DNA of 27,237 nucleotides from a virus: positions 1 through 27,237 of the IMG/VR virus record IMGVR_UViG_3300048044_000033, one strand, 5' to 3'. The notes below the pieces were generated by a model. That model was not told where the DNA came from, searched no databases, and saw only the letters and a program-made list of their open reading frames with translations. Shown piece by piece: positions 7,433-21,217 of the stretch (within the stretch, counting starts at the first letter, position 1; every line of letters starts with the position of its first letter). The position numbers and the translations under genes were made by a program.

Positions 7433-8113
7433 CTATTTCCCCCAAGGATTGTTTGATTGGAATGAACTTCCTTGCGAATTTGATTGGAATGAACTTCCTT
7501 GCGAATCAGCCCAAGGATTATTACTCTGGAATGAAGCACCTTGAGGAGCTGAACCACCTTTATTAAACATACCGCCAAACATGCTCATTAGAGGACCGGC
7601 AGCGGCAAGGCCAACCCCTCCTGTCATAGCTCCAAGTATCGCAGGTAAAGCTGTCTGAAGAAGTCCTTGTGATCCTGGCTGCATTGCCTGAGTGTTCACG
7701 TTCATTCCATTCAGCATGTTTGTATATGGTTGCTGTGCATATTGCAATCCCATTTGAGCGCCTTGTTGCTGCAAACCACCTTTAATAGCACCTAATTGAG
7801 ACATTAGATTAGTCCCGGCAGTTCCCAAGGAGTTGTTTAAAGCGCTTGATCCGGCAGCACCTGCACCCGTGCCCATTCCGGCGAAGCGTTCGGCTATACC
7901 CGGAATAACCTGTTGATTGAATTGATTCATCAGAGGTTGTTCAAACTGTGAAGTATCTCCAGAAAGAAGCTTCATTAAGTAGTCATTTCCTTGCTGATAA
8001 AGAGGATTACTTTGAATACCTTGCGTATATTGGTCCTGCATCTTTTGTTGATTTTTATCTAGTGTACTGATCATTTTAGACTTTGAGCCTAATATAAAAT
8101 CCCAGAATGCCAT
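7433..8113 (-). CDS. Internal virion protein, Gln/Gly-rich with tandem C-terminal repeats
   Basis: 226 residues; AAAGG seven bases before the ATG. The N-terminal half is amphipathic and Gln-rich (LMNQFNQQVIPGIAERFAG, then a GTGAGAAGSSAL stretch). Residues about 160-190 are Gly/Ala/Met-rich and hydrophobic (ILGAMTGGVGLAAAGPLMSM), a possible membrane-inserting segment. The C-terminus carries SQGSSFQSN repeats closing with NNPWGK. It is immediately upstream of the 1005-residue gene, so I infer it is the smaller partner of the ejection apparatus that forms a channel with the larger protein. Confidence 0.65.
   Translation of the reverse strand: MAFWDFILGSKSKMISTLDKNQQKMQDQYTQGIQSNPLYQQGNDYLMKLLSGDTSQFEQPLMNQFNQQVIPGIAERFAGMGTGAGAAGSSALNNSLGTAGTNLMSQLGAIKGGLQQQGAQMGLQYAQQPYTNMLNGMNVNTQAMQPGSQGLLQTALPAILGAMTGGVGLAAAGPLMSMFGGMFNKGGSAPQGASFQSNNPWADSQGSSFQSNSQGSSFQSNNPWGK
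7452..7505 (-). repeat. Perfect 27-bp tandem duplication in the ejection gene
   Basis: Two identical 27-base units (7452-7478 and 7479-7505) encode two SQGSSFQSN-type units. A third, diverged unit (GASFQSNNPWAD) follows at about 7515-7540. Perfect identity at DNA level points to a recent slippage expansion. Confidence 0.85.
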
Positions 8114-8115
8114 AT

Positions 8116-8607
8116 TTAAGCCTTTATATATTCAAGCACGACATAGCATGTGACGTATGCAGTCCAATCGCTTGCAGTTGTTATATTAACGTTAGTTGTA
8201 TCTACGAATAATTCTATATTATCATTAGCGTTATTGCTTGCATAGGGAATTGGAATGAAAGAAGTTCCTGGTTGCGTAGCTGTTGCATAGATCCTAGTGA
8301 AGATTGTTCCGTTAGTAATATTTATTCCATGTGCAACAGCTTTATTCATGGCATTTGGCAACGCGCCGAAATTGACTACTGTGCGGTAAGTATACCTATT
8401 CTTCTTGGGAGAGAAGTTAATCGCGAAGTATTGCTGACCTGATAATATTTCATTGTTTTCGTAATTTCCATTTTCCTTGATATTGACAATATCAGCCGTA
8501 AGTCTTTCTCTTTTGCATATAAAATCTATGAAGCTACTTTCATCTTTAGGTAAAGCAAATTCGACAGGAAGAAAAGAAGATTGAGAATTGATAGGTGCAT
8601 AACTCAT
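8116..8607 (-). CDS. Tail-tip or receptor-binding structural protein
   Basis: 163 residues; GGAAGGATC precedes the ATG, which overlaps the preceding stop (ATGA). The N-terminus is polar with an attachment-like segment (SFLPVEFALPKDESS). Residues about 70-163 form a beta domain (TYRTVVNFGALPN, NGTIFTRIYATATQPGTSF, IELFVDTTNVNITTASDW) ending YVVLEYIKA, a pattern I associate with small C-terminal tail domains in many environmental phages. It lies between the hub and ejection genes, which fits a tail-tip component. No enzymatic motif is seen. Confidence 0.6.
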   Translation of the reverse strand: MSYAPINSQSSFLPVEFALPKDESSFIDFICKRERLTADIVNIKENGNYENNEILSGQQYFAINFSPKKNRYTYRTVVNFGALPNAMNKAVAHGINITNGTIFTRIYATATQPGTSFIPIPYASNNANDNIELFVDTTNVNITTASDWTAYVTCYVVLEYIKA

Positions 8608-10775
8608 CTTTTGATCCTTCCTTCGTTTCTTGTATGGAAGATAACTCCTTGAAGTTCAAAATCTGAAGATCCTACCAATGGATCAGCTAACTGCGCAGCG
8701 CTAAGAGTAATAGTTATTTGATGCTGTCTAGCTATCATCCCCAAGAAAACGCGCGTATATTTCGAATTGTCGGTTGCGCTAGATAAGTTAACGACTCTTT
8801 GCAACCAAGGAGCTGAAGAATTATCATCTATATAATTTTGCAATGTAACTTGGCAATTGTCTGTTCCTGTCGTATATAAATCATAATACTGAAGTCTACA
8901 GCGCATTGCCTTGTTGAAGTATGGATTTATCAAATTTGTGGTTAAAACAAAGTTGTAATTAATTCCATTATCAGTTGAAACGTCAGGAGCCATTATTTGC
9001 CAGACACGTGAACTTACATCACCGGCAACAATGATTATTGTGTTTTGCTGATCGAGGGGAGTTTCCCAAGTTGAAGTATCTCCAGCCCAAATTGTTGTCC
9101 AAGTGCTCCAAATGCTATCTACTGTTTGCTTATATTGACCTAGAGTAGTAAAACTTTGCTGGAATTGTGCCCATGTTGAATCCTGGTAATTATAGCAAAG
9201 AACATTGTTTGGAGTTTGCGCATTGGTGCCAGTATCTCCATATAACCAATAAACCAAGCGCTTTTGATAATCACGAATGCCTTGAATACGATCAATCCCT
9301 TCAACGGTTCCACCATCTTCGAAACTATCTACAAAGTCGGGAACTTCAAGATCAATGCGGTCTACATCATTGAAAGTGGATCTGATAATTCCTCGGCGAC
9401 TTATACCTAAAAGTCCTTCATCAAATTCGACGGTAGTGAAAGTGCCTTCGATTCCAAATTGCGTGTTAATACGTTCCCAGACGAAGGGTAAAATCTCATT
9501 TCCTGTGTAGCGAAGCCTCCACATACTGAATTGAAATCCCACGATAAGGGTATCTTGGACAATTCCACATGCAACGATTTGTTCACTGGTATCTGCATCT
9601 ATATATCCTCCTTTTCCAGGCACATTATCTAGCCAAGCCGTGGCGTCGTTTGAGAATCCAGCAGGAGCGTTTGCCACGAAAGGAGTACCTAATTGACTCC
9701 AACGAGCACGACTATAAAAGTTTTTGTTTCCTATTTGTGGAGTGGCATTACTTCCTTCTGTCGTATTAAGTGCAACCAAGCGGCCTTTATAAGGAAGAAT
9801 CATTAGCGCGGAATTTAAGTATATTGAATTAACCATGGGTTGAAAATCGGCCCATCCGTTTGTTGTGCTTCCATTAAAAAAACGAATCCCAACAGGTTGA
9901 GCAACCGTATTGAAAATATTGTTTGTAGACCACATTACTGTAGCAAAATTGGAAGTGTAGAAAAAATTATCCTTAGTTCCCGACCATGTAATTGGCGCAC
10001 CTGTGGTGTTAAAACTAATGTCAATGAAGCTATTAGACGTTGTATTGTAAAGCCAAGCTTCTTTGGGATTAAAAACAACAAGTTGCTCGTTTCCTGTTGA
10101 TGTCAGGAGGAATGTTCTTGTACCGACTATTGGCAAATAAATGTCAGCCGAAGCGCCTTGCCCAGAAGCCACAACGTTTTGAGATCCAGGGGGAAGCGCA
10201 TTCAAAACTTGAAGAGAAAATGTATTTGCATTTATCACCGTGATATAAAAGGCCTGTTTCTCAAGACCGCCAAGTTCTACTGTTCCTCCAGAAGAATAAG
10301 ATAATCCGTTTGTTGAAACAGACAAAACGATAGTTGAACCTGAAATGGAGATTATGGGGAATGTTCCTTGATTAAGGATAGTTCCTATAGAACCAACGAT
10401 TCCAGTGAGATAAACCGTATTTCCAACAGATATATTTAGAGGTCCAGTTGTAGTTATGCTAGTCGTAATTCCTGGGGTTATTAAGGTGATTGTTCCATTC
10501 GTTGCCACGACGTTTTCTAGATAAACCATGTCCCCGGTTAATAATCCATGTGCTGCAAGAGTGACGACTGGAGGTGTAGCGTTAGTGATAGCAGTGGCAG
10601 AACCCCAAAGAGGGATACGACCAAGCACAACACTTCCTTCACGCTTTTTTACGCTTCCTCTCCAGGTGTAGCAATTCAGCATTTTGACAAAAGCATCCTT
10701 TCCAATAATGAAAGGCTTGTAATACTGGCTAAGCCCGCTTTTGTATGGAGCTACTAAGTTAGGTTCATATCCCAT
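8604..10775 (-). CDS. Tail hub / packaged-DNA stabilisation-like protein with FCCH-like inserts
   Basis: 723 residues; the start overlaps the preceding stop by one base (TAATG) and has no clear ribosome site, so it is probably coupled. The N-terminus (MGYEPNLVAPYKSGLSQYYK ... FVKMLNCYTWRGSVKKREG) resembles P22 gp10-type stabilisation proteins of environmental phages. Residues about 60-90 and 168-190 look like two halves of one FCCH-like beta domain (PPVVTLAAHGLLTGDMVYLE; LEKQAFYITVINANTFSLQV). They are interrupted at about 95-167 by a second similar unit (GPLNISVGNTVYLTGIVGSI). The remainder is beta-propeller-like, rich in Trp and Asn (WADFQPMVNSIYLNSALMIL, TWAQFQQSFTTLGQYKQTV). The role is inferred: closing the portal channel and building the tail hub. 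Confidence 0.65.
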   Translation of the reverse strand: MGYEPNLVAPYKSGLSQYYKPFIIGKDAFVKMLNCYTWRGSVKKREGSVVLGRIPLWGSATAITNATPPVVTLAAHGLLTGDMVYLENVVATNGTITLITPGITTSITTTGPLNISVGNTVYLTGIVGSIGTILNQGTFPIISISGSTIVLSVSTNGLSYSSGGTVELGGLEKQAFYITVINANTFSLQVLNALPPGSQNVVASGQGASADIYLPIVGTRTFLLTSTGNEQLVVFNPKEAWLYNTTSNSFIDISFNTTGAPITWSGTKDNFFYTSNFATVMWSTNNIFNTVAQPVGIRFFNGSTTNGWADFQPMVNSIYLNSALMILPYKGRLVALNTTEGSNATPQIGNKNFYSRARWSQLGTPFVANAPAGFSNDATAWLDNVPGKGGYIDADTSEQIVACGIVQDTLIVGFQFSMWRLRYTGNEILPFVWERINTQFGIEGTFTTVEFDEGLLGISRRGIIRSTFNDVDRIDLEVPDFVDSFEDGGTVEGIDRIQGIRDYQKRLVYWLYGDTGTNAQTPNNVLCYNYQDSTWAQFQQSFTTLGQYKQTVDSIWSTWTTIWAGDTSTWETPLDQQNTIIIVAGDVSSRVWQIMAPDVSTDNGINYNFVLTTNLINPYFNKAMRCRLQYYDLYTTGTDNCQVTLQNYIDDNSSAPWLQRVVNLSSATDNSKYTRVFLGMIARQHQITITLSAAQLADPLVGSSDFELQGVIFHTRNEGRIKR

Positions 10776-11464
10776 TAAAATATACCATATACTATAACAT
10801 TAAGTGTTCCGGCATAAGGATTTTCATTATTAAAAGAATTTACTCTTATTACAAAACCAACATTTGATCTAGCTATAATGCTAACGAAATATATGTCAGT
10901 ATTTACTAGGAAAGGACTATCTAGATTTACAGAAACCCCATATAAATAACTCGAAAGAGGTTGTGTGAAAACAATTGTCCAGCTTCTTTGTGATCCTGAT
11001 GTAACGGGTGTGATAGGGAAATTTATATTAAAAGCATTTCCATTAACGGTTCCTGTTGAATTAAAACAAGCAAAAGCTTGAATGCAGGAGATTGGGTAAT
11101 CAATATACTTCGTTGCGTCTGTTGGATCTGTTCCAATAACATATTTCAATATTGCATGAGGTTCACCTTCCGTTCCTCCGGTATCTGTCGTGGTGTAAAG
11201 GATACCTGCCGCTATTTCTCCATTAACTGCGTTTGTTTGAGACGATGGCGTTGATCGGCTAGGCATACTGACTTGATTATGAAAACCATCTGTGGGAGTC
11301 GTAACGTCGTTCCCTGACATTTGGTGATCAACAGCTAGTGTTCCAGCTGGGGTTATACCTGTGTCGCCTGTCAGATCAAGAAGGTATAAACTATTATTAA
11401 GCAGATCAAGCTGTGAGGCATTTCTTTGATCTCCAGAAAGGGGTTTGTTTTGATACTGAACCAT
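10775..11464 (-). CDS. Unrecognised virion structural protein
   Basis: 229 residues; GAGG six bases before the ATG. The first 45 residues are mixed (SGDQRNASQLDLLNNSLYLL). The remainder is Thr/Asn/Gly-rich beta strand with no transmembrane segment or catalytic motif (SYLYGVSVNLDSPFLVNTDI, ending GTLNVIVYGIF). It is coupled to the hub gene by a one-base overlap and follows the putative connector. A head-tail joining or tail accessory role is inferred from position only. Confidence 0.65.
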   Translation of the reverse strand: MVQYQNKPLSGDQRNASQLDLLNNSLYLLDLTGDTGITPAGTLAVDHQMSGNDVTTPTDGFHNQVSMPSRSTPSSQTNAVNGEIAAGILYTTTDTGGTEGEPHAILKYVIGTDPTDATKYIDYPISCIQAFACFNSTGTVNGNAFNINFPITPVTSGSQRSWTIVFTQPLSSYLYGVSVNLDSPFLVNTDIYFVSIIARSNVGFVIRVNSFNNENPYAGTLNVIVYGIF

Positions 11465-11470
11465 GAAACC

Positions 11471-12607
11471 TCAATATATAGGGAATATAGGCCAGCCAGC
11501 TTGTCCGTTTTGGGCATTTTCTGCATATTTTGTCGGTATGCGCTGATTGGCGAGTTGTTTAAGACATTTTCTTTGAGCTAATCGTTTGTTTTCTTCGAAT
11601 GGGCCTTTTAATCTTTCGGCTTCGTCGTAGTCACCTTCTTCAATCAGAATCTTAATGGCAGCGCCATACGCTAGGACTTGCCACCATTCTTGAAAGAGAG
11701 GTTGTTGAGTGTCCAATGACTGAGTAAGAGGGGTGAATTGTGAATAAACCCCAGGTGGGGGATTAACTGGATTTGTGCCTGCATTTGTTAGATTTGAAAT
11801 GGCGACGCTAGGTTGGACATAAGCAAGTAGTTTTATTCTGTAGGTATCATTAGGTATTGGACGTAAAAAGAGTTGCTGTTGAAAAAACATCATATCTCTA
11901 GGACGCGAGGGCACATAAGGATGATAGTGACAGCTACTTTTTGTTCCCAATGGAGGGGGAGTTATATAATTCAGGTTGACAACGCCAGTTAAATAATCAA
12001 TAGTTCCCGAGCTTCCAAGATTTCCCTTGAGGATTCCTGGATTTACAAATTGCTCTTCTAATGGCTGATCTAGTAAACAAGGGGTATCTTGATCAGTAAA
12101 AGTTTCCAATTTAGGACTATTTGGAGATCCATCAATGTTTGGCTTTAAACCAATCGAGACTGTTCCTTGTTGAATTGGAGTTTGTGTAAGATTGAAAACA
12201 AAAGGATCGGCAGAAGTGCCGCTACTTCCATCTGGAGTAAATAAATTGCGATCAATGAAGTTAAACTCTGGCCAAATGCGGTAAAAGCTTTCAGGATATT
12301 GATGCCAGGAACACTGATAGCCATCGACATAAACAGGATCATAAATTTGATAGATATTATTAGGTACGTTGTATGTCCCGACATTTGGCAAAGCTGTGAA
12401 TTCGAAGAAATCTCTAAGCTTAAGGGTGCGTAAATGCTCTGGAAAATCCAAAAGGTAAAAGTCATTGATGTAATCAATAATGCCTGATGGATTAGAAACA
12501 CTCACATTTCTGTCATCGCCAGCTTGATCAGGCATTTGGTCAAGATCAAATCTTCCAGCCAGCTTTCTTACAGTGTAGATTAGCCTAGAGAGATTCCAAA
12601 CAGTCAT
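11471..12607 (-). CDS. Putative head-to-tail connector (adaptor-like) protein
   Basis: 378 residues; the ATG overlaps the upstream stop (TGATG), with GGCGGA shortly before. The N-terminus is helical (MTVWNLSRLIYTVRKLAGRF) and leads into a section rich in Tyr and Pro. The C-terminal helices (WWQVLAYGAAIKILIEEGDY, DEAERLKGPFEENKR) are acidic and amphipathic, as in connector rings that dock under the portal. The gene lies between head genes and the tail hub, where an adaptor is expected. Assignment is by layout and helix pattern, not by a diagnostic motif. Confidence 0.5.
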   Translation of the reverse strand: MTVWNLSRLIYTVRKLAGRFDLDQMPDQAGDDRNVSVSNPSGIIDYINDFYLLDFPEHLRTLKLRDFFEFTALPNVGTYNVPNNIYQIYDPVYVDGYQCSWHQYPESFYRIWPEFNFIDRNLFTPDGSSGTSADPFVFNLTQTPIQQGTVSIGLKPNIDGSPNSPKLETFTDQDTPCLLDQPLEEQFVNPGILKGNLGSSGTIDYLTGVVNLNYITPPPLGTKSSCHYHPYVPSRPRDMMFFQQQLFLRPIPNDTYRIKLLAYVQPSVAISNLTNAGTNPVNPPPGVYSQFTPLTQSLDTQQPLFQEWWQVLAYGAAIKILIEEGDYDEAERLKGPFEENKRLAQRKCLKQLANQRIPTKYAENAQNGQAGWPIFPIY

Positions 12608-12987
12608 CAGAATTCCGCCATGAATTTATATCTGCATTTTATCTTAGAACCTTTGAGTGGTCTTCCTTCTTCATCTATAAGATGGCTATGGATTTCATAT
12701 CCAATGCGCTCATTTATCATACGGGCTACACTTAAAGGAATAGTCGCGCGCTCGCCATCTTCAAAGGTTCTGCAAAAGTAGGGCATTCCCTTGTAAAGCC
12801 GAGCACAAACTTTAGCTGTCTGACCTGGATATTCTACGTTTACGAAAACGCCAGTGACTTTCTTGTCTGTCTCGGGTGTAAGAGATTCAATGGATTCTTT
12901 GTTAACCGCTGTATGACTAATCATTGCATGGATTAGGGGAATCCGCAGGTTTTGAGAACTAATATCTGATGGTTTTTGTACTTTCAT
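12607..12987 (-). CDS. Unrecognised small head/connector-region protein
   Basis: 126 residues; AAGGA lies before the ATG. A polar N-terminus (KVQKPSDISSQNLRIPLIHA) precedes a mixed alpha/beta body (VTGVFVNVEYPGQTAKVCAR, MPYFCRTFEDGERATIPLSV) and a basic end (GSKIKCRYKFMAEF). It is coupled to the connector-like gene. No family is recognised; it may be a head completion factor or a non-virion regulator. Confidence 0.6.
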   Translation of the reverse strand: MKVQKPSDISSQNLRIPLIHAMISHTAVNKESIESLTPETDKKVTGVFVNVEYPGQTAKVCARLYKGMPYFCRTFEDGERATIPLSVARMINERIGYEIHSHLIDEEGRPLKGSKIKCRYKFMAEF

Positions 12988-17053: not shown

Positions 17054-17143
17054 GCATCCTTAGCTCAAAAGTAGAGCGCATCTGGGCCGTTTATTCCAAT
17101 TTTTGGTTTAGGTGAGGATGATGGTGCAAGTCCATCAGGATGC
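17054..17143 (+). ncRNA. tRNA-like cloverleaf with a 10-bp extended anticodon arm
   Basis: A full cloverleaf can be drawn. The acceptor is GCATCCT (17054) with AGGATGC (17137-17143), 7 perfect pairs. TA then leads into a D arm GCTC-AAAAGTA-GAGC, with one linker base. The third arm is CATCTGGGCC (17079) with GGTTTAGGTG (17105-17114): 10 pairs including G-U, closed by a 16-base loop. A 5-base variable region precedes the T arm GATGG-TGCAAGT-CCATC. The D loop lacks the usual GG, no CCA is encoded, and no 7-base anticodon loop with U33 can be formed, so a decoding tRNA is unlikely as written. Removing 19 bases from the third arm would give normal tRNA size. It sits 75 bases upstream of an RNA-repair operon. 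It could be a decoy, a leader regulator, an intron-bearing tRNA or a decayed tRNA. Confidence 0.65.
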
Positions 17144-17172
17144 TTTAGGGGAAGTGAACCAAAACAGCTTTT

Positions 17173-17188
17173 GCAAGTAGTTACTTGC
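17173..17188. promoter_or_regulatory. Palindrome/hairpin before the RNA-repair operon
   Basis: GCAAGTA-GT-TACTTGC lies between the cloverleaf and the first start codon. Its CAAGTA/TACTTG arms resemble the inner arms of the 19-bp palindromes but with a shorter centre. It could be an operator half-relative or an mRNA hairpin 25 bases upstream of the ribosome site. Confidence 0.45.
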
Positions 17189-17218
17189 CCCCTTGTTCTA
17201 TTCCCTTGAAGGAATCTT

Positions 17219-17866
17219 ATGATTGTTGACTGTATATCTGACTTACACGGCTACTATCCAAAACTTGAAGGTGGGGATCTTCTGATTGTGGCAGGGGATT
17301 TGACGGCTAGAGATCATGAATATGAATACAGAGAAGTTTACGAGTGGTTTTGGATGCAAAATTATGCAGGAATAGTCTTCATTGGTGGAAATCACGATAA
17401 TAATATCGGGACAATAACTAAACAAGGACCTCAAAGCATTCAATATTTATGCGATTCAGGTACAGAATTCCTAGGACTGAAGATCTGGGGATCACCTTGG
17501 ACTAAGACATTCAAAGGCATGAATCCGCATTGTAAAGCCTTCACTATGGAAGATGATTGCCAGATAGGAGAGAAATTCAAACTCATTCCAGACGATACAG
17601 ATATATTGATTACACACTCTCCCCCTTTGGGCATATTAGATGTTGTACAACGTTGGCCAGACATGAAAATGGAAAACTGCGGAAGTGGACATTTGCGTAC
17701 TCATGTAGAAAGAATAAAACCTAAATTGCACGTATTTGGTCATATTCATGAAGGTTATGGCAAACTTCTCCTTAAACACCAAGGTCCCAATACATGGTGT
17801 GTGAATGCTAGCCATGTCAATGAGGTTTACGATCCCATAAATAAGCCTATAAGGATAATCTTATGA
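17219..17866 (+). CDS. Metallophosphoesterase (calcineurin-like)
   Basis: 215 residues; GAAGGAATCTT precedes the ATG. The five metal-binding blocks of the calcineurin-like fold are present in order: SDLHG (7-11), GDLT (26-29), GGNHD (56-60), THSPP (132-136) and GHIHEG (174-179). They would hold two metal ions for phosphomonoester or phosphodiester hydrolysis; no signal peptide is present, so it acts in the cytoplasm. Its stop overlaps the RNA ligase start by four bases. The phosphatase of bacterial Pnkp/Hen1 repair systems is from the same superfamily and removes 2',3'-cyclic or 2'-phosphate ends, so a role in preparing broken RNA 3' ends is a reasonable inference. A nucleotide phosphodiesterase is the alternative. 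Confidence 0.88.
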   Translation: MIVDCISDLHGYYPKLEGGDLLIVAGDLTARDHEYEYREVYEWFWMQNYAGIVFIGGNHDNNIGTITKQGPQSIQYLCDSGTEFLGLKIWGSPWTKTFKGMNPHCKAFTMEDDCQIGEKFKLIPDDTDILITHSPPLGILDVVQRWPDMKMENCGSGHLRTHVERIKPKLHVFGHIHEGYGKLLLKHQGPNTWCVNASHVNEVYDPINKPIRIIL

Positions 17867-18831
17867 ATGAAGGTCTAGCTTACATAGGAAAAATCATATC
17901 TCTTGAAGATGTTCCAGATTCTGATTTTATCTCATGCGCTACGGTGGTTTGTGGAAAAGGTGGTAAGTGGAGGGGAGTAGTTAAACGCGGAACTCTTTAT
18001 GTTGGTGGTCGATGTAGGATTTATCTTCCAGACAGTCTTTTAGTTCCTTCTGAAGAATTTCTGTTCATGGATAAGCATAGGTATCGCGTGCGCATGTGTA
18101 AGTTTCGTGATTGCCCTTCCGAAGTACTCATAATGCCCATGAAGATAGAATACATTTCTTGCCCTGTAGGGGAAGATATTACTTCGTTAGAGGGTGTAAA
18201 AAAGTACTTCAAACAAATACCTTTAGATATGCAAGGTGAGATTTATGGAGAATTTCCTCAATTCATACCTAAAACGGATGAACCGAATTATCAGACTGTG
18301 CCTGATGTTGTTGAAAGTCTGGTTGGCAAGCCTTATTACATCAGTCAGAAGATGGATGGCACGTCATCTACAGCATATAGATACAAGGGTCATTTTGGGG
18401 TGTGTTCGCGCAATTGGGAACTGAAACGTGATGAAAATAATGCATTATGGAAGATAGCTATAGATCATGATTTAGAGAATAAATTGCCCGAAGGTTATGC
18501 TATCCAATGGGAAACCTGTGGTCCTAAAATTCAAAGTAACATGGCTGGATTGAAGGAAATTGAAGGATTTGCGTTCAATATTTATGATATAGAGAAACAA
18601 GAAAGGCTGTATTTTAGTGATTTTAACGATTTCACAGATAAACTTATGTTTCCTATATGTAGGATTTCAGGCATGGGAGAGGCGTTTAATGAAGAAATGA
18701 TGCATATGCATGCCGAGAGACTTACATATGATAATGGACAACCTCATGAGGGTGTAGTTGTGCGCAGTCAAGATCTTATCAATGGACAACACATAAGTTT
18801 CAAGTGCATAAACCTTAACTACGAGAATTGA
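17863..18831 (+). CDS. ATP-dependent RNA ligase, DRB0094/Rnl5 type
   Basis: 322 residues; AAGGATAATCTT precedes the ATG. Nucleotidyltransferase motifs are complete: I KMDGTS (163-168, adenylated Lys163), an SRN block at 182-184, III QWETCGPKIQSN (215-226), IIIa FAFNIYDI (236-243), IV EGVVVRS (296-302) and V SFKCIN (312-317). About 150 residues precede motif I and look like an OB-type beta domain (ATVVCGKGGKWRGVVKRG, YRVRMCKFRD). That N-terminal OB plan and the length match the Deinococcus DraRnl (Rnl5) family, which seals 3'-OH/5'-phosphate nicks in RNA. It is coupled to the metallophosphoesterase upstream. A DNA ligase is unlikely because no C-terminal OB domain follows motif V. Confidence 0.88.
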   Translation: MNEGLAYIGKIISLEDVPDSDFISCATVVCGKGGKWRGVVKRGTLYVGGRCRIYLPDSLLVPSEEFLFMDKHRYRVRMCKFRDCPSEVLIMPMKIEYISCPVGEDITSLEGVKKYFKQIPLDMQGEIYGEFPQFIPKTDEPNYQTVPDVVESLVGKPYYISQKMDGTSSTAYRYKGHFGVCSRNWELKRDENNALWKIAIDHDLENKLPEGYAIQWETCGPKIQSNMAGLKEIEGFAFNIYDIEKQERLYFSDFNDFTDKLMFPICRISGMGEAFNEEMMHMHAERLTYDNGQPHEGVVVRSQDLINGQHISFKCINLNYEN

Positions 18832-18832
18832 T

Positions 18833-19051
18833 ATGCCATGTAGATGTTGTGGAGCAGAAGGGCCAGCAAAGGGATTTAAAACAAATGAATCACAAGATCC
18901 TGCGGATGTGCTAATAAATCATCATTTGGCTTTATCTGCGTATCTTGTAAAAAAACAATATCAAGAACCTCTATACGATCAAGAAGCATGGTTTAAAGAA
19001 TGGGAAAAAGCATTTTCACATCATTTGAGAGGTTGCGATGAGAGGTCTTGA
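18833..19051 (+). CDS. Small protein with N-terminal CxxC, unknown
   Basis: 72 residues starting one base after the ligase stop; ribosome site weak (GAGAATTGAT), so probably coupled. MPCRCCGAEGPAKG at the start gives a Cys-rich turn, and the body is helical and aromatic (YDQEAWFKEWEKAFSHHLRG). One more Cys at residue 68 could complete a metal site. Function unknown; membership in the RNA-repair operon is the only clue. Confidence 0.6.
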   Translation: MPCRCCGAEGPAKGFKTNESQDPADVLINHHLALSAYLVKKQYQEPLYDQEAWFKEWEKAFSHHLRGCDERS

Positions 19052-19364
19052 ATGGTTCAAAACATCAGATAAACTTCCACCGTATGATCTTAAAGTACTT
19101 GGATGGATTGCCTGTGAAGCATGCCGTAAGAAAGAAAACCATGCTCATCCAGCGGTTTGGCATGAATGGTCGCAATGTGATTTTTATCCTGTCACCCTTA
19201 AAGAATTTAGTTGGGAAAACATGAGTTGGGAAAAATCCGAAACAGGGATATGTTTCAAGCCAAAAGAACCTATAGAGGTTAAGAAAGACAATTGGCGACC
19301 TTATCCAAGTCCATCCTATTGGGCGTATATTAATCCACCTAATTTTGAGCAAGATGATGAATGA
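19038..19364 (+). CDS. Possible divergent DUF551-like protein
   Basis: 108 residues; GAGAGGTTGCG precedes the ATG, and the gene overlaps its neighbour by 14 bases. The frame W..sd.LPP.dl.VLgW near the start and WAYINPP near the end recall the layout of DUF551 proteins (as in the gene at 26641), but the match is loose. Two Cys (CEAC) and several Trp lie between. Its role in the operon is unknown. Confidence 0.5.
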   Translation: MRGLEWFKTSDKLPPYDLKVLGWIACEACRKKENHAHPAVWHEWSQCDFYPVTLKEFSWENMSWEKSETGICFKPKEPIEVKKDNWRPYPSPSYWAYINPPNFEQDDE

Positions 19365-19560
19365 AAATACGGTAAATAACCCCTCACACTATCAAGGAAA
19401 GTCCCTTGAGGTTATAGACGTTATATCAGATTTTAATTTGAATTTCTGTCTAGGCAATGCAGTAAAATATATTCTTCGTGCTGGAAAGAAACAAAACCGT
19501 GATGAAGATCTCAAGAAAGCTTTGTGGTATATTCAAAGGGAGATAGAAAATGGATTTTAA
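19354..19560 (+). CDS. DUF3310 family protein (SaV-like, T7 gp1.7-related)
   Basis: 68 residues from the ATG at 19354; a TTG at 19345 is also possible. The whole body matches DUF3310: NPSHYQGKSLEVIDVI, then DFNLNFCLGNAVKYILRAGK and EDLKKALWYIQREIE. The family occurs in many phages and forms part of T7 gp1.7, a nucleotide kinase; this domain alone has no P loop. It overlaps the previous gene by 11 bases and the next by 11. A nucleotide-metabolism role is family knowledge; the link to RNA repair is positional only. Confidence 0.8.
   Translation: MMNENTVNNPSHYQGKSLEVIDVISDFNLNFCLGNAVKYILRAGKKQNRDEDLKKALWYIQREIENGF
19392..19409 (+). other. Hairpin TCAAGG/CCTTGA with AAAGTC loop, copy 1
   Basis: TCAAGG-AAAGTC-CCTTGA lies in the coding start of the DUF3310 gene. 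A second hairpin at 19683 has the identical loop and a stem that differs by one compensated base pair (C-G here, T-A there), as expected if the RNA structure is kept. Confidence 0.4.
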
Positions 19561-19723
19561 TTTTAGACCTCCAAGTTGTCTTGCTAGAGCACAATGGGCA
19601 CGTAATGAAGAATGTAAGATGCGATCAAAGCATTTAGAAAGGCTTGAAAACAAGGAATATGTTGAGAAAATACTAAAAGATGTTAAGGAAAGTCCCTTAA
19701 GGGAGATAGAAAATGGAATGTAA
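19550..19723 (+). CDS. 57-residue charged protein, unknown
   Basis: ATG at 19550 overlaps the DUF3310 reading frame by 11 bases, with GGGAGATAGAAA as ribosome site. The product is hydrophilic and helical (MDFNFRPPSCLARAQWARNE; LERLENKEYVEKILKDV). It ends REIENGM, echoing the REIENGF end of DUF3310, because both genes close with the same 17-base start-site cassette for the next gene. Not recognised. Confidence 0.55.
   Translation: MDFNFRPPSCLARAQWARNEECKMRSKHLERLENKEYVEKILKDVKESPLREIENGM
19683..19700 (+). other. Hairpin TTAAGG/CCTTAA with AAAGTC loop, copy 2
   Basis: TTAAGG-AAAGTC-CCTTAA directly precedes the ribosome site of the 54-residue gene (GGGAGATAGAAAATGGA). It has the same loop as copy 1 at 19392 and a compensated stem change. 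Placed here it could modulate translation of the next gene. Confidence 0.4.
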
Positions 19724-19877
19724 TTTTTGTGTCGTTCCTGGGTGCTCTGGAGTAGATTGTGAATTAAAAAAAGAGCAAAATGATATTTCAGATGCATTCA
19801 ATAAATATCTTCAGAATCTCCTAAAAGAAATACTTGATGAGTCTCCGATACGTTTGAGACAGACAAGAAATTTTTGA
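19713..19877 (+). CDS. 54-residue Cys-rich protein, unknown
   Basis: ATG at 19713 with GGGAG upstream, overlapping the previous gene by 11 bases. The N-terminus has four Cys in 16 residues (MECNFCVVPGCSGVDC), a plausible small zinc site, followed by an amphipathic helix (ISDAFNKYLQNLLKEILDE) and a basic tail (RLRQTRNF). A nucleic-acid or protein-binding mini-protein is possible; not recognised. Confidence 0.5.
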   Translation: MECNFCVVPGCSGVDCELKKEQNDISDAFNKYLQNLLKEILDESPIRLRQTRNF

Positions 19878-19922
19878 ATGATACATAACAGCTATTATCA
19901 GACGTAGTAAATCAAGGACATC

Positions 19923-20540
19923 ATGATCATTTTTGACTTAGATGGAACTTTAGCTAATTGTGATCATCGCAGACATTTTGTCGATGCATCTTATAGAACT
20001 GATTGCTATTACCATTTTCCTGCTACTCTCTCTCAAAGCGAGGGATGGTTTTACAAGGATCGTATTTTAATGTGCGAACCACCAAAAGCAATAAAATTTA
20101 TCCCTGACTGGAAAGCATTCAACGAGGCGTGCGATAAAGATGAGCCCATCCAACCCGTAATGGATATGTTTTGTCGATTGCTGGCGGAACAGCAACAGGA
20201 TATAGAGGTGTGGTCTGGAAGGTGCCAATCTGTAGAAGATAAGACAGTAAATTGGTTGAGATATCATTTAGATGATTATTTTGGTAGAGATGCTTATATT
20301 AAATGGAAATACAATATAAAGATGCGTCCCATAGGCGATTCAACTCCAGACGATCAACTTAAAGAGCGTTGGTTAAACGAACGATGTTCAGATCTTATTG
20401 AAGCTATAATAAATGATCTTCCTCATGCAGTGAAACATGATGTCGAATTTGTATTTGATGATCGCCCGAAAGTGATCCGCATGTGGAGACGTAGAGGTAT
20501 ATTTGTGTTCAACTGTTGTAAGCATGATAGAGAGTTTTAA
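19923..20540 (+). CDS. HAD phosphatase resembling the T4 Pnkp 3'-phosphatase domain
   Basis: 205 residues; AAGGACATC precedes the ATG. HAD motifs: I DLDGT (5-9, nucleophile D5 and acid D7), II WSGR (97-100, Ser98), III DDQLKERW (143-150, Lys146) and IV DDRPKVIRMWRRRG (179-192). The motif IV string, two Asp then R-x-x-V-x-x-MWRR-x-G, is the pattern of the C-terminal phosphatase domain of T4 polynucleotide kinase/phosphatase, which removes 3'-phosphate and 2',3'-cyclic phosphate from RNA ends. There is no kinase P loop, so this is a stand-alone phosphatase. Residues about 17-75 are an extra cap-like segment. It shares the operon with the RNA ligase, supporting an end-healing role. A nucleotide 5'-phosphatase is the alternative. 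Confidence 0.82.
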   Translation: MIIFDLDGTLANCDHRRHFVDASYRTDCYYHFPATLSQSEGWFYKDRILMCEPPKAIKFIPDWKAFNEACDKDEPIQPVMDMFCRLLAEQQQDIEVWSGRCQSVEDKTVNWLRYHLDDYFGRDAYIKWKYNIKMRPIGDSTPDDQLKERWLNERCSDLIEAIINDLPHAVKHDVEFVFDDRPKVIRMWRRRGIFVFNCCKHDREF

Positions 20541-20541
20541 C

Positions 20542-20709
20542 ATGAAATCGGAAGAAAAATGTGTTTTAGTTCTAGAAGAAATTATAAAATTACTAGAAAA
20601 GCTTTCACCCCAAGAAAGACTGTGGATATTAGAGATTCATGTTCCGCAATATATTTGTTTAACTTGCGGAGATAATATTACTGATTGCCAGCATGATGAG
20701 GAATTTTAA
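20542..20709 (+). CDS. 55-residue protein with paired Cys, unknown
   Basis: I start at the ATG at 20542, one base after the HAD stop, because the upstream in-frame extension lies inside the HAD gene. The N-terminus is an amphipathic helix (CVLVLEEIIKLLEKLSPQER). The C-terminus has CLTCGDNITDCQHDEE, three Cys and a His that may bind zinc. GAGAG upstream is a weak ribosome site. It sits two bases before another small Cys protein. Function unknown. Confidence 0.55.
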   Translation: MKSEEKCVLVLEEIIKLLEKLSPQERLWILEIHVPQYICLTCGDNITDCQHDEEF

Positions 20710-20711
20710 TT

Positions 20712-20969
20712 ATGGATTGCCCAGATTGCGGATATGGTCTTTATTGCAGTGACTGCTGGAATGCAATGCAAGTATGTTTTCCCTCAAAAAATGAAATTTA
20801 CACCGGACTAGGCATAACCATAACTGAAAATGAGTGTGAGTTAAGTGTGGATAAGGAATGGATCAAGAGTTTGCTTATGGAATTTAATTCACATCAATTT
20901 CCTATAACGATTGGAATGGGTAAAATTGATAATTTTCTTGAAAAATCAAAAATATGGAATGAAAAATGA
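20712..20969 (+). CDS. Small protein with N-terminal zinc ribbon, unknown
   Basis: 85 residues; GAGGAATTTTAATT precedes the ATG. MDCPDCGYGLYCSDCW gives two CxxC knuckles eight residues apart, a compact zinc site. The rest is alpha/beta (YTGLGITITENECELSVDKE; FPITIGMGKIDNFLEKS). It is coupled to the next gene by a four-base overlap. Possibly nucleic-acid binding; not recognised. Confidence 0.6.
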   Translation: MDCPDCGYGLYCSDCWNAMQVCFPSKNEIYTGLGITITENECELSVDKEWIKSLLMEFNSHQFPITIGMGKIDNFLEKSKIWNEK

Positions 20970-21217
20970 AAACTTTAGACGAGTGCGCAAAATTTTCGCA
21001 TATTTTAACGATAGAAATATCAAAAATCATAGAAAAAATGACAAAGGAAAGTTTTGAAAGTAAAGAAATTTCAAAACTTGAGTTGTCAGCCCTAATGTAT
21101 GGTGTTTTCTATCCAGTTATAGCATGTGCAGTCGCAGGTGGAATAGGAAAAAAGGAGTTGGGTATGATATGTGAACAAATAATTAAGACATCTTATCCTA
21201 AAGATAGCCAGGAATAA
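20966..21217 (+). CDS. Small helical protein, last gene of the plus-strand module
   Basis: 83 residues; overlaps the previous stop (ATGA) with GGAATGAAAA upstream. Mostly helical (LTIEISKIIEKMTKESFESK) with a central hydrophobic segment (SALMYGVFYPVIACAVAGGI) that is too polar-flanked to be a clear membrane span. Its TAA lies in the loop of a hairpin that may end the transcript. Function unknown. Confidence 0.6.
   Translation: MKTLDECAKFSHILTIEISKIIEKMTKESFESKEISKLELSALMYGVFYPVIACAVAGGIGKKELGMICEQIIKTSYPKDSQE

Follow-up and report, generated by a model that had tools for sequence, protein, structure and literature searches.

A putative RNA-repair locus centred on an Rnl5-type ligase in a phage of about 40 kb

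Gene content of the locus

The stretch of DNA analysed here, the window, is the viral IMG/VR record IMGVR_UViG_3300048044_000033, 27,237 bases long. Its late genes, which include a P22-like portal (Pfam, PHROG), are on the minus strand, and into this late region breaks a plus-strand cassette at about 17.05-21.2 kb. The cassette encodes a metallophosphoesterase (MPE), a predicted RNA ligase and a HAD phosphatase, which an earlier note made from the sequence alone had described as a compact RNA-repair operon. The features are:

17054..17144, plus strand: tRNA-like gene (ARAGORN with introns allowed)
17219..17866, plus strand: metallophosphoesterase assigned to the MPPED type, 215 amino acids (Pfam Metallophos; matches to MPPED2, 3RL4; metal ligands intact)
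17863..18831, plus strand: RNA ligase assigned to the Rnl5/DRB0094 type, 322 amino acids (Pfam RNA_ligase, phrog_968, NgrRnl 5COT; N-terminal OB plus nucleotidyltransferase domain)
18833..19051, plus strand: small open reading frame, 72 amino acids (no Pfam or PHROG match)
19038..19364, plus strand: small open reading frame, 108 amino acids (no Pfam or PHROG match)
19345..19560, plus strand: DUF3310 protein, 71 amino acids (Pfam 1.6e-19)
19923..20540, plus strand: predicted stand-alone T4-Pnkp-like HAD 3'-phosphatase, 205 amino acids, no kinase domain (Pfam HAD_PNKP 6e-19; PDB profile)

The three enzyme genes are present with their active-site residues intact, as Pfam and alignments confirm. 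Their description as a compact operon of coupled genes suits the first two, which overlap by 4 bp (17863-17866, ATGA), but not the HAD gene, which starts 1,091 nt past the ligase stop codon, behind the frames of 72, 108 and 71 amino acids and smaller ones.

An IMG/VR contig of 40,538 bases, G001, is near-identical to the window, including the region of the three enzyme genes. Because the window sequence continues uninterrupted across both ends of G001, which overlap at about 10787-10928 of the window (some 140 bases by coordinate mapping, with no exact string match), G001 appears to be a whole genome of about 40.4 kb. In its remaining 13 kb lie genes for a Toprim/DnaB-type primase-helicase, for RecT and for a YqaJ nuclease.

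Identity of the enzymes

The ligase is recognised by the Pfam RNA_ligase model (70.9 bits, cut-off 27) and by phrog_968, which covers residues 4-320. Its closest solved structure is NgrRnl of Naegleria (5COT; phmmer 8e-33, aligned from residue 28). The motif residues are K163-x-D-G, R183, E217, G297 and K314, and K163, D165, G166, R183 and E217 are invariant across 70 unique relatives; the N-terminal OB region matches the PHA02142 OB model weakly, under the cut-off. With family motifs I-V, the KxDG lysine and an N-terminal OB domain, the protein is assigned to the Rnl5/DRB0094 type, as the earlier note had proposed, and is predicted to seal 3'-OH/5'-PO4 RNA nicks. Domain order and motifs are those of DraRnl and NgrRnl (Rnl5 family, DRB0094). 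Unlike the ligase of the Deinococcus DRB0098-0100 set, which comprises an HD phosphatase/kinase, a macrodomain protein and the ligase (PMC1274311), the window ligase of about 320 amino acids is coupled to an MPPED-type MPE.

The MPE scores 42 bits with Pfam Metallophos (cut-off 21.5). MPPED2 (3RL4) is far ahead of all other matches by phmmer (3e-26), profile (6e-49) and Foldseek (5e-15), the next fold matches including aq_1956 and Dbr1, which debranches lariats. D8, H10, D27, N58, H133, H175 and H177 are all in place, giving a full set of metal ligands that includes the histidine absent from MPPED2 (G252 of MPPED2). By sequence, fold and two-metal site the protein is assigned to the MPPED type of cyclic-nucleotide diesterases; it resembles the class III phosphodiesterases MPPED1 and MPPED2 but, unlike them, is a phage gene adjoining an RNA ligase gene. 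A Pnkp-type phosphatase was considered and rejected, as profile and fold lists are led by MPPED2 and contain no Pnkp MPE; the enzyme class and active site that had been claimed stand. MPPEDs cleave diesters, not monoesters, and prefer 2',3'-cAMP, while the biological substrate of the family has been termed unknown (PMC10547211). This preference fits the opening of a 2',3'-cyclic RNA end by the MPE, and the enzyme probably opens cyclic RNA ends.

The HAD protein scores 69 bits with HAD_PNKP (cut-off 27.6), and the only significant PDB matches of its profile are T4 Pnkp and bacterial Pnkp1 (5UJ0, 4XRP, 1LTQ). The DxDGT, SGR and DDR motifs expected of a Pnkp-type HAD are intact. The assignment comes from sequence profiles, the AlphaFold model being too poor (pLDDT 41), and agrees with the kinase-less, Pnkp-like HAD domain proposed before. 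The expectation that both phosphatases would group with RNA-end enzymes is thus borne out by half: the MPE groups with MPPED2, the HAD with Pnkp enzymes only.

A polynucleotide kinase was sought in vain: G001 has no AAA_33 match, the main open reading frames of its other 13 kb include no such enzyme, and no AAA_33 match exceeds the cut-off in 52 records (G001 and 51 relatives), where subthreshold P-loop matches were judged by eye to be ParA-like, via a ParA-like family in the set. The earlier note had seen no 5'-kinase and had suggested that the substrate already carries a 5'-phosphate or that the kinase is supplied elsewhere. Its absence is confirmed both in the window and in the apparently complete G001, and a phage-encoded kinase is rejected on these searches; a cut leaving a 5'-phosphate and a host kinase stay as proposals. 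The DUF3310 protein (19345-19560) matches PHROG families labelled 'nucleotide kinase', a label to be read with caution; since it is only 71 amino acids long, it cannot be the absent 5'-kinase.

The 5'-OH kinase of the T4 Pnkp/Rnl1 and bacterial Pnkp repair systems is therefore not found here. Like T4, the phage has a 3'-phosphatase domain and an ATP-dependent RNA ligase, but it lacks the 5'-kinase domain, its ligase is Rnl5 rather than Rnl1, and it has an additional MPPED diesterase. With the bacterial Pnkp1-Rnl-Hen1 complex it would share RNA end healing and sealing, and its HAD resembles that of Pnkp1 (4XRP), but it has no kinase and a different ligase family. Hen1 was not recognised among the scanned proteins.

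Association of the ligase with the metallophosphoesterase, RtcB and tRNA genes

Relatives of the ligase with 45-54% identity occur in other phages of like size, and more were found through the ligase alignment. We compared 24 near-complete records with the ligase and 28 without it, and a set of 80 loci picked by the MPE alone. An intact MPE is present in 20 of the 24 ligase-bearing records and a damaged fragment in one more. In 16 of the 20 the two genes are less than 3 kb apart, against about 16% if positions within 40 kb were random (p ~4e-10, a value overstated as accessory genes cluster). The arrangement varies: the MPE precedes and overlaps the ligase in the window, the ligase comes first in L009, again with an overlap, the two abut in L105, and in L005 they are on opposite strands.

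RtcB is found in 8/24 records with the ligase and 0/28 without it (p=0.001). It lies close to the Rnl5-type ligase in L005 (8760-9941), L007 (3070-4326), L009 (14783-15949), L036, L047 and others, directly adjoining it in L005, L036 and L047. Such a 40-kb phage encodes, close together, two RNA ligases whose end chemistries are opposite. Plain tRNA genes are also more frequent with the ligase (20/45 ligase-bearing versus 11/67 MPE-only loci, p=0.002) and, if tRNA-like genes are counted, with RtcB (12 of 15 ligase loci with it versus 7 of 23 without it, p=0.007, with locus lengths that differ). Published work agrees in part: a 140-fold enrichment of DRB0094-type ligase was reported among phages that have tRNA-linked theta ribozymes (PMC10879173).

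As the MPE-ligase pair is conserved and RtcB and tRNA genes are enriched in phages with the ligase, a role of the ligase in RNA or tRNA repair is well supported. The set as a whole resembles a strategy described for jumbo phages, which combine tRNAs and an ATP-grasp or RtcB ligase with end-cleaning HAD, 2H or calcineurin-like phosphoesterases; it differs from those sets in the phage size of 40 kb, the DRB0094-type ligase and the MPPED diesterase (PMC7824862).

Proposed repair pathway

We lean slightly towards an accessory RNA-repair module, centred on the nick-sealing Rnl5-type ligase, in this phage of about 40 kb with a P22-like portal; the phage probably mends cut tRNAs. We infer substrates and an order of steps as follows. 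During infection host tRNAs, phage tRNAs or the tRNA-like RNA that the phage itself encodes would be cut, perhaps by anticodon nucleases, which the module would counter. The MPPED-type diesterase would open the 2',3'-cyclic phosphate, leaving a 3'-phosphate for the Pnkp-like HAD to take off, and the ligase would connect the 3'-OH to a 5'-phosphate. This division of labour is chemically sensible, since MPPEDs hydrolyse only diesters and prefer 2',3'-cAMP (PMC10547211). With no 5'-kinase encoded, this 5'-phosphate must either be left by the cut or come from a host kinase. Going by known chemistry, metal-dependent nucleases of PIN/VapC type would leave 5'-phosphate and 3'-OH ends, for which the ligase alone may be enough. 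In relatives with RtcB, the 2',3'-cyclic phosphate could be joined directly to a 5'-OH, and the two ligases together would handle both break chemistries.

Several results weigh against this pathway. Without a kinase, 5'-OH breaks are beyond sealing by the ligase alone. The MPE is frequent in relatives that lack the ligase: the 80 loci picked by the MPE alone are mostly without it, yet have TerL and portal families in common with the ligase-bearing phages. The MPE gene is widespread in these phages and may have another purpose. HAD_PNKP is not associated with the ligase, occurring in 3/24 records with it and 2/28 without it. Co-occurrence is moreover confounded by relatedness, and a portal-chosen control (MPE in 1/24, ligase in 0/24) comes mostly from another branch and is a weak base-rate control. 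Finally, 93 of 95 unique MPE sequences retain their metal ligands, and the two exceptions, L040 (D8C; 11295-12848) and L178 (N58S; 7876-10013), both encode a HAD of the window type that is damaged as well: in L040 the DxDGT glycine is lost and ESD stands in place of DDR, and in L178 N replaces the nucleophile D and DAS replaces DDR. Being damaged together, in these two cases only, hints at a shared task of the two enzymes.

Besides the window phage and its twin G001, the three genes are close together only in L040, and the cellular ligase relatives (L264-L275) have no such trio. A conserved unit of three is thus rejected. Of the trio that the earlier note expected to find elsewhere, the MPE-ligase pair is kept and the HAD is not; its RNA-repair interpretation is partly supported, by the ligase and HAD identities and the RtcB and tRNA enrichment, and tRNA repair centred on the ligase is the better-supported part. 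Window-type HADs do adjoin the MPE, RtcB or tRNAs in L177, L178 and L355, and the HAD is a plausible, weakly linked helper.

The same results could be explained, with appreciably lower probability, by genes that are neighbours and form no pathway: the ligase would repair RNA alone, the HAD would be an unrelated accessory phosphatase, and the MPE, an enzyme common in the lineage, would break down small cyclic nucleotides (2',3'-cNMP or defence signals). The many relatives with an MPE and no RNA ligase, the lack of association between HAD and ligase, and the cyclic-nucleotide diesterases that are the closest solved relatives of the MPE all agree with this. It accounts less well for MPE and ligase genes that overlap or abut and are unusually close in varied orders, and for the RtcB and tRNA genes clustering with them.

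Taken singly, the enzymes of the proposed repair module are ordinary; their combination is a new variation, in which small phages pair an Rnl5-type ligase with a coupled MPPED diesterase and often have RtcB and tRNA genes as well. To our knowledge, RNA repair in phages has been described chiefly for the T4-like and jumbo groups, and the role of DRB0094 ligases has been unclear since 2004. If correct, the module would show how 40-kb phages survive tRNA-cutting defences, give the MPPED family a testable RNA substrate and tie DRB0094 ligases to tRNAs.

The tRNA-like gene and related RNAs

The tRNA-like gene lies 75 bp upstream of the MPE gene and is 100% identical in G001. Its cloverleaf has a 7-bp acceptor stem, a 4-bp D stem, a 5-bp anticodon stem and a 5-bp T arm, and no CCA. 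The anticodon loop is 26 nt, 19 nt more than the normal 7, and extends as a hairpin; the predicted fold (-32.5 kcal/mol, z -2.6) has an 11-bp anticodon stem. Plain ARAGORN and Rfam do not call the gene, and no theta ribozyme or other Rfam RNA is found near it at E<=1.

Insert-type tRNAs occur in 9/45 ligase-bearing and 2/67 MPE-only loci (p=0.007), and in none of 1.6 Mb of shuffled sequence. The count for ligase-bearing loci leaves out three ARAGORN calls, two that span or overlap two plain tRNAs (L008, L056 4605-4720) and one duplicate (L055, of L054); in the MPE-only set, the L111 call spans two tRNAs. One family of tRNA-like RNAs, family 1, carries GGCGATGAG-[hairpin]-TTTTCATGCAG where an anticodon arm would be; this core is invariant and forms a bulged helix with a variable hairpin. 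The core resembles a small bulge-helix-bulge. Members are:

L054, 12298-12404
L056, 4724-4812
L105, 8632-8731
L041, 11922-12031
L320, L322, L323 and L324

A first anticodon-arm pattern gave mostly chance matches, and only matches within a tRNA body were retained; in 2.9 million viral contigs the core was found in a tRNA body in 10 stretches, with two other matches outside a tRNA. Every family 1 contig with a long enough stretch has the ligase, RtcB or the MPE; L324 is only partly covered. Across the eight members, standard pairs fill 99.4% of pair cells, and nine pairs, chiefly those of the acceptor and T arms, are changed on both sides, compared with 4.7 in shuffles.

The window RNA, whose T-loop is TGCAA, is of a different type. 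About 80 viral contigs (L325-L404), for example L336, L341, L343, L346, L355 and L385, were found in a second scan to have such tRNA bodies and enlarged anticodon arms; a subgroup has GATCC-[hairpin]-GGGGAGAGGTC in common. Most have no Rnl5 ligase nearby within the stretch covered. A limited literature search found no description of such phage tRNA-like RNAs.

These observations bear on whether the locus serves the maturation of the phage's own RNA, the tRNA-like RNA (and its family in relatives) being cut in the lengthened hairpin of its anticodon arm and then joined again by the ligase or RtcB. Such a role is unlikely. It would account for the position of the gene just upstream of the MPE, for the enrichment of insert-bearing tRNA genes at ligase loci and for the presence, in contigs with the ligase or with RtcB or the MPE, of one family whose bulged helix is conserved and whose hairpin covaries. 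However, removal of the insert yields no canonical 7-nt anticodon loop (U33, purine 37) in the window RNA, where the best excision leaves TTGGTTT with U37, or in family 1; many phages with similar TGCAA-type RNAs lack such a ligase in the vicinity, and no splicing endonuclease was found. A little less likely still is the fuller scheme in which RNAs with an anticodon-arm hairpin are cut and rejoined by the phage Rnl5-type ligase or RtcB with the cyclic-end diesterase, as a phage-encoded, protein-dependent tRNA splicing or a decoy-and-repair cycle. As insert removal restores no canonical loop, splicing is only one possibility, and the RNAs may instead be decoys or nuclease-resistant mimics.

That the substrates are DNA or RNA-DNA nicks in phage recombination, not tRNA, is very improbable: RecT and the YqaJ nuclease are encoded and T4 Pnkp-type phosphatases accept 3'-phosphates on DNA as well as on RNA, but the DraRnl-type ligase family is RNA-specific on the 3' side of the nick, and RtcB and tRNA genes are associated with the locus.

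Further observations

Further RNA_ligase proteins, short ones from open frames of 227-249 amino acids, are encoded in the relatives G030 (two), G050, G061 and G076, two of which also have a DRB0094-type ligase. In an Omnitrophota contig (L274, 3161-6093), two phosphatase-like open reading frames, one resembling a metallophosphoesterase as judged by eye, are directly 5' of a 530-amino-acid DRB0094-type ligase.

A promoter and terminator scan gave a signal no higher than in shuffles. A DUF3310 gene is downstream of the ligase in L004 and L008 too. The cassette (17054-21217, plus strand) has a positive GC skew and a slightly reduced GC content (36-40%), and it stops just short of the portal gene.

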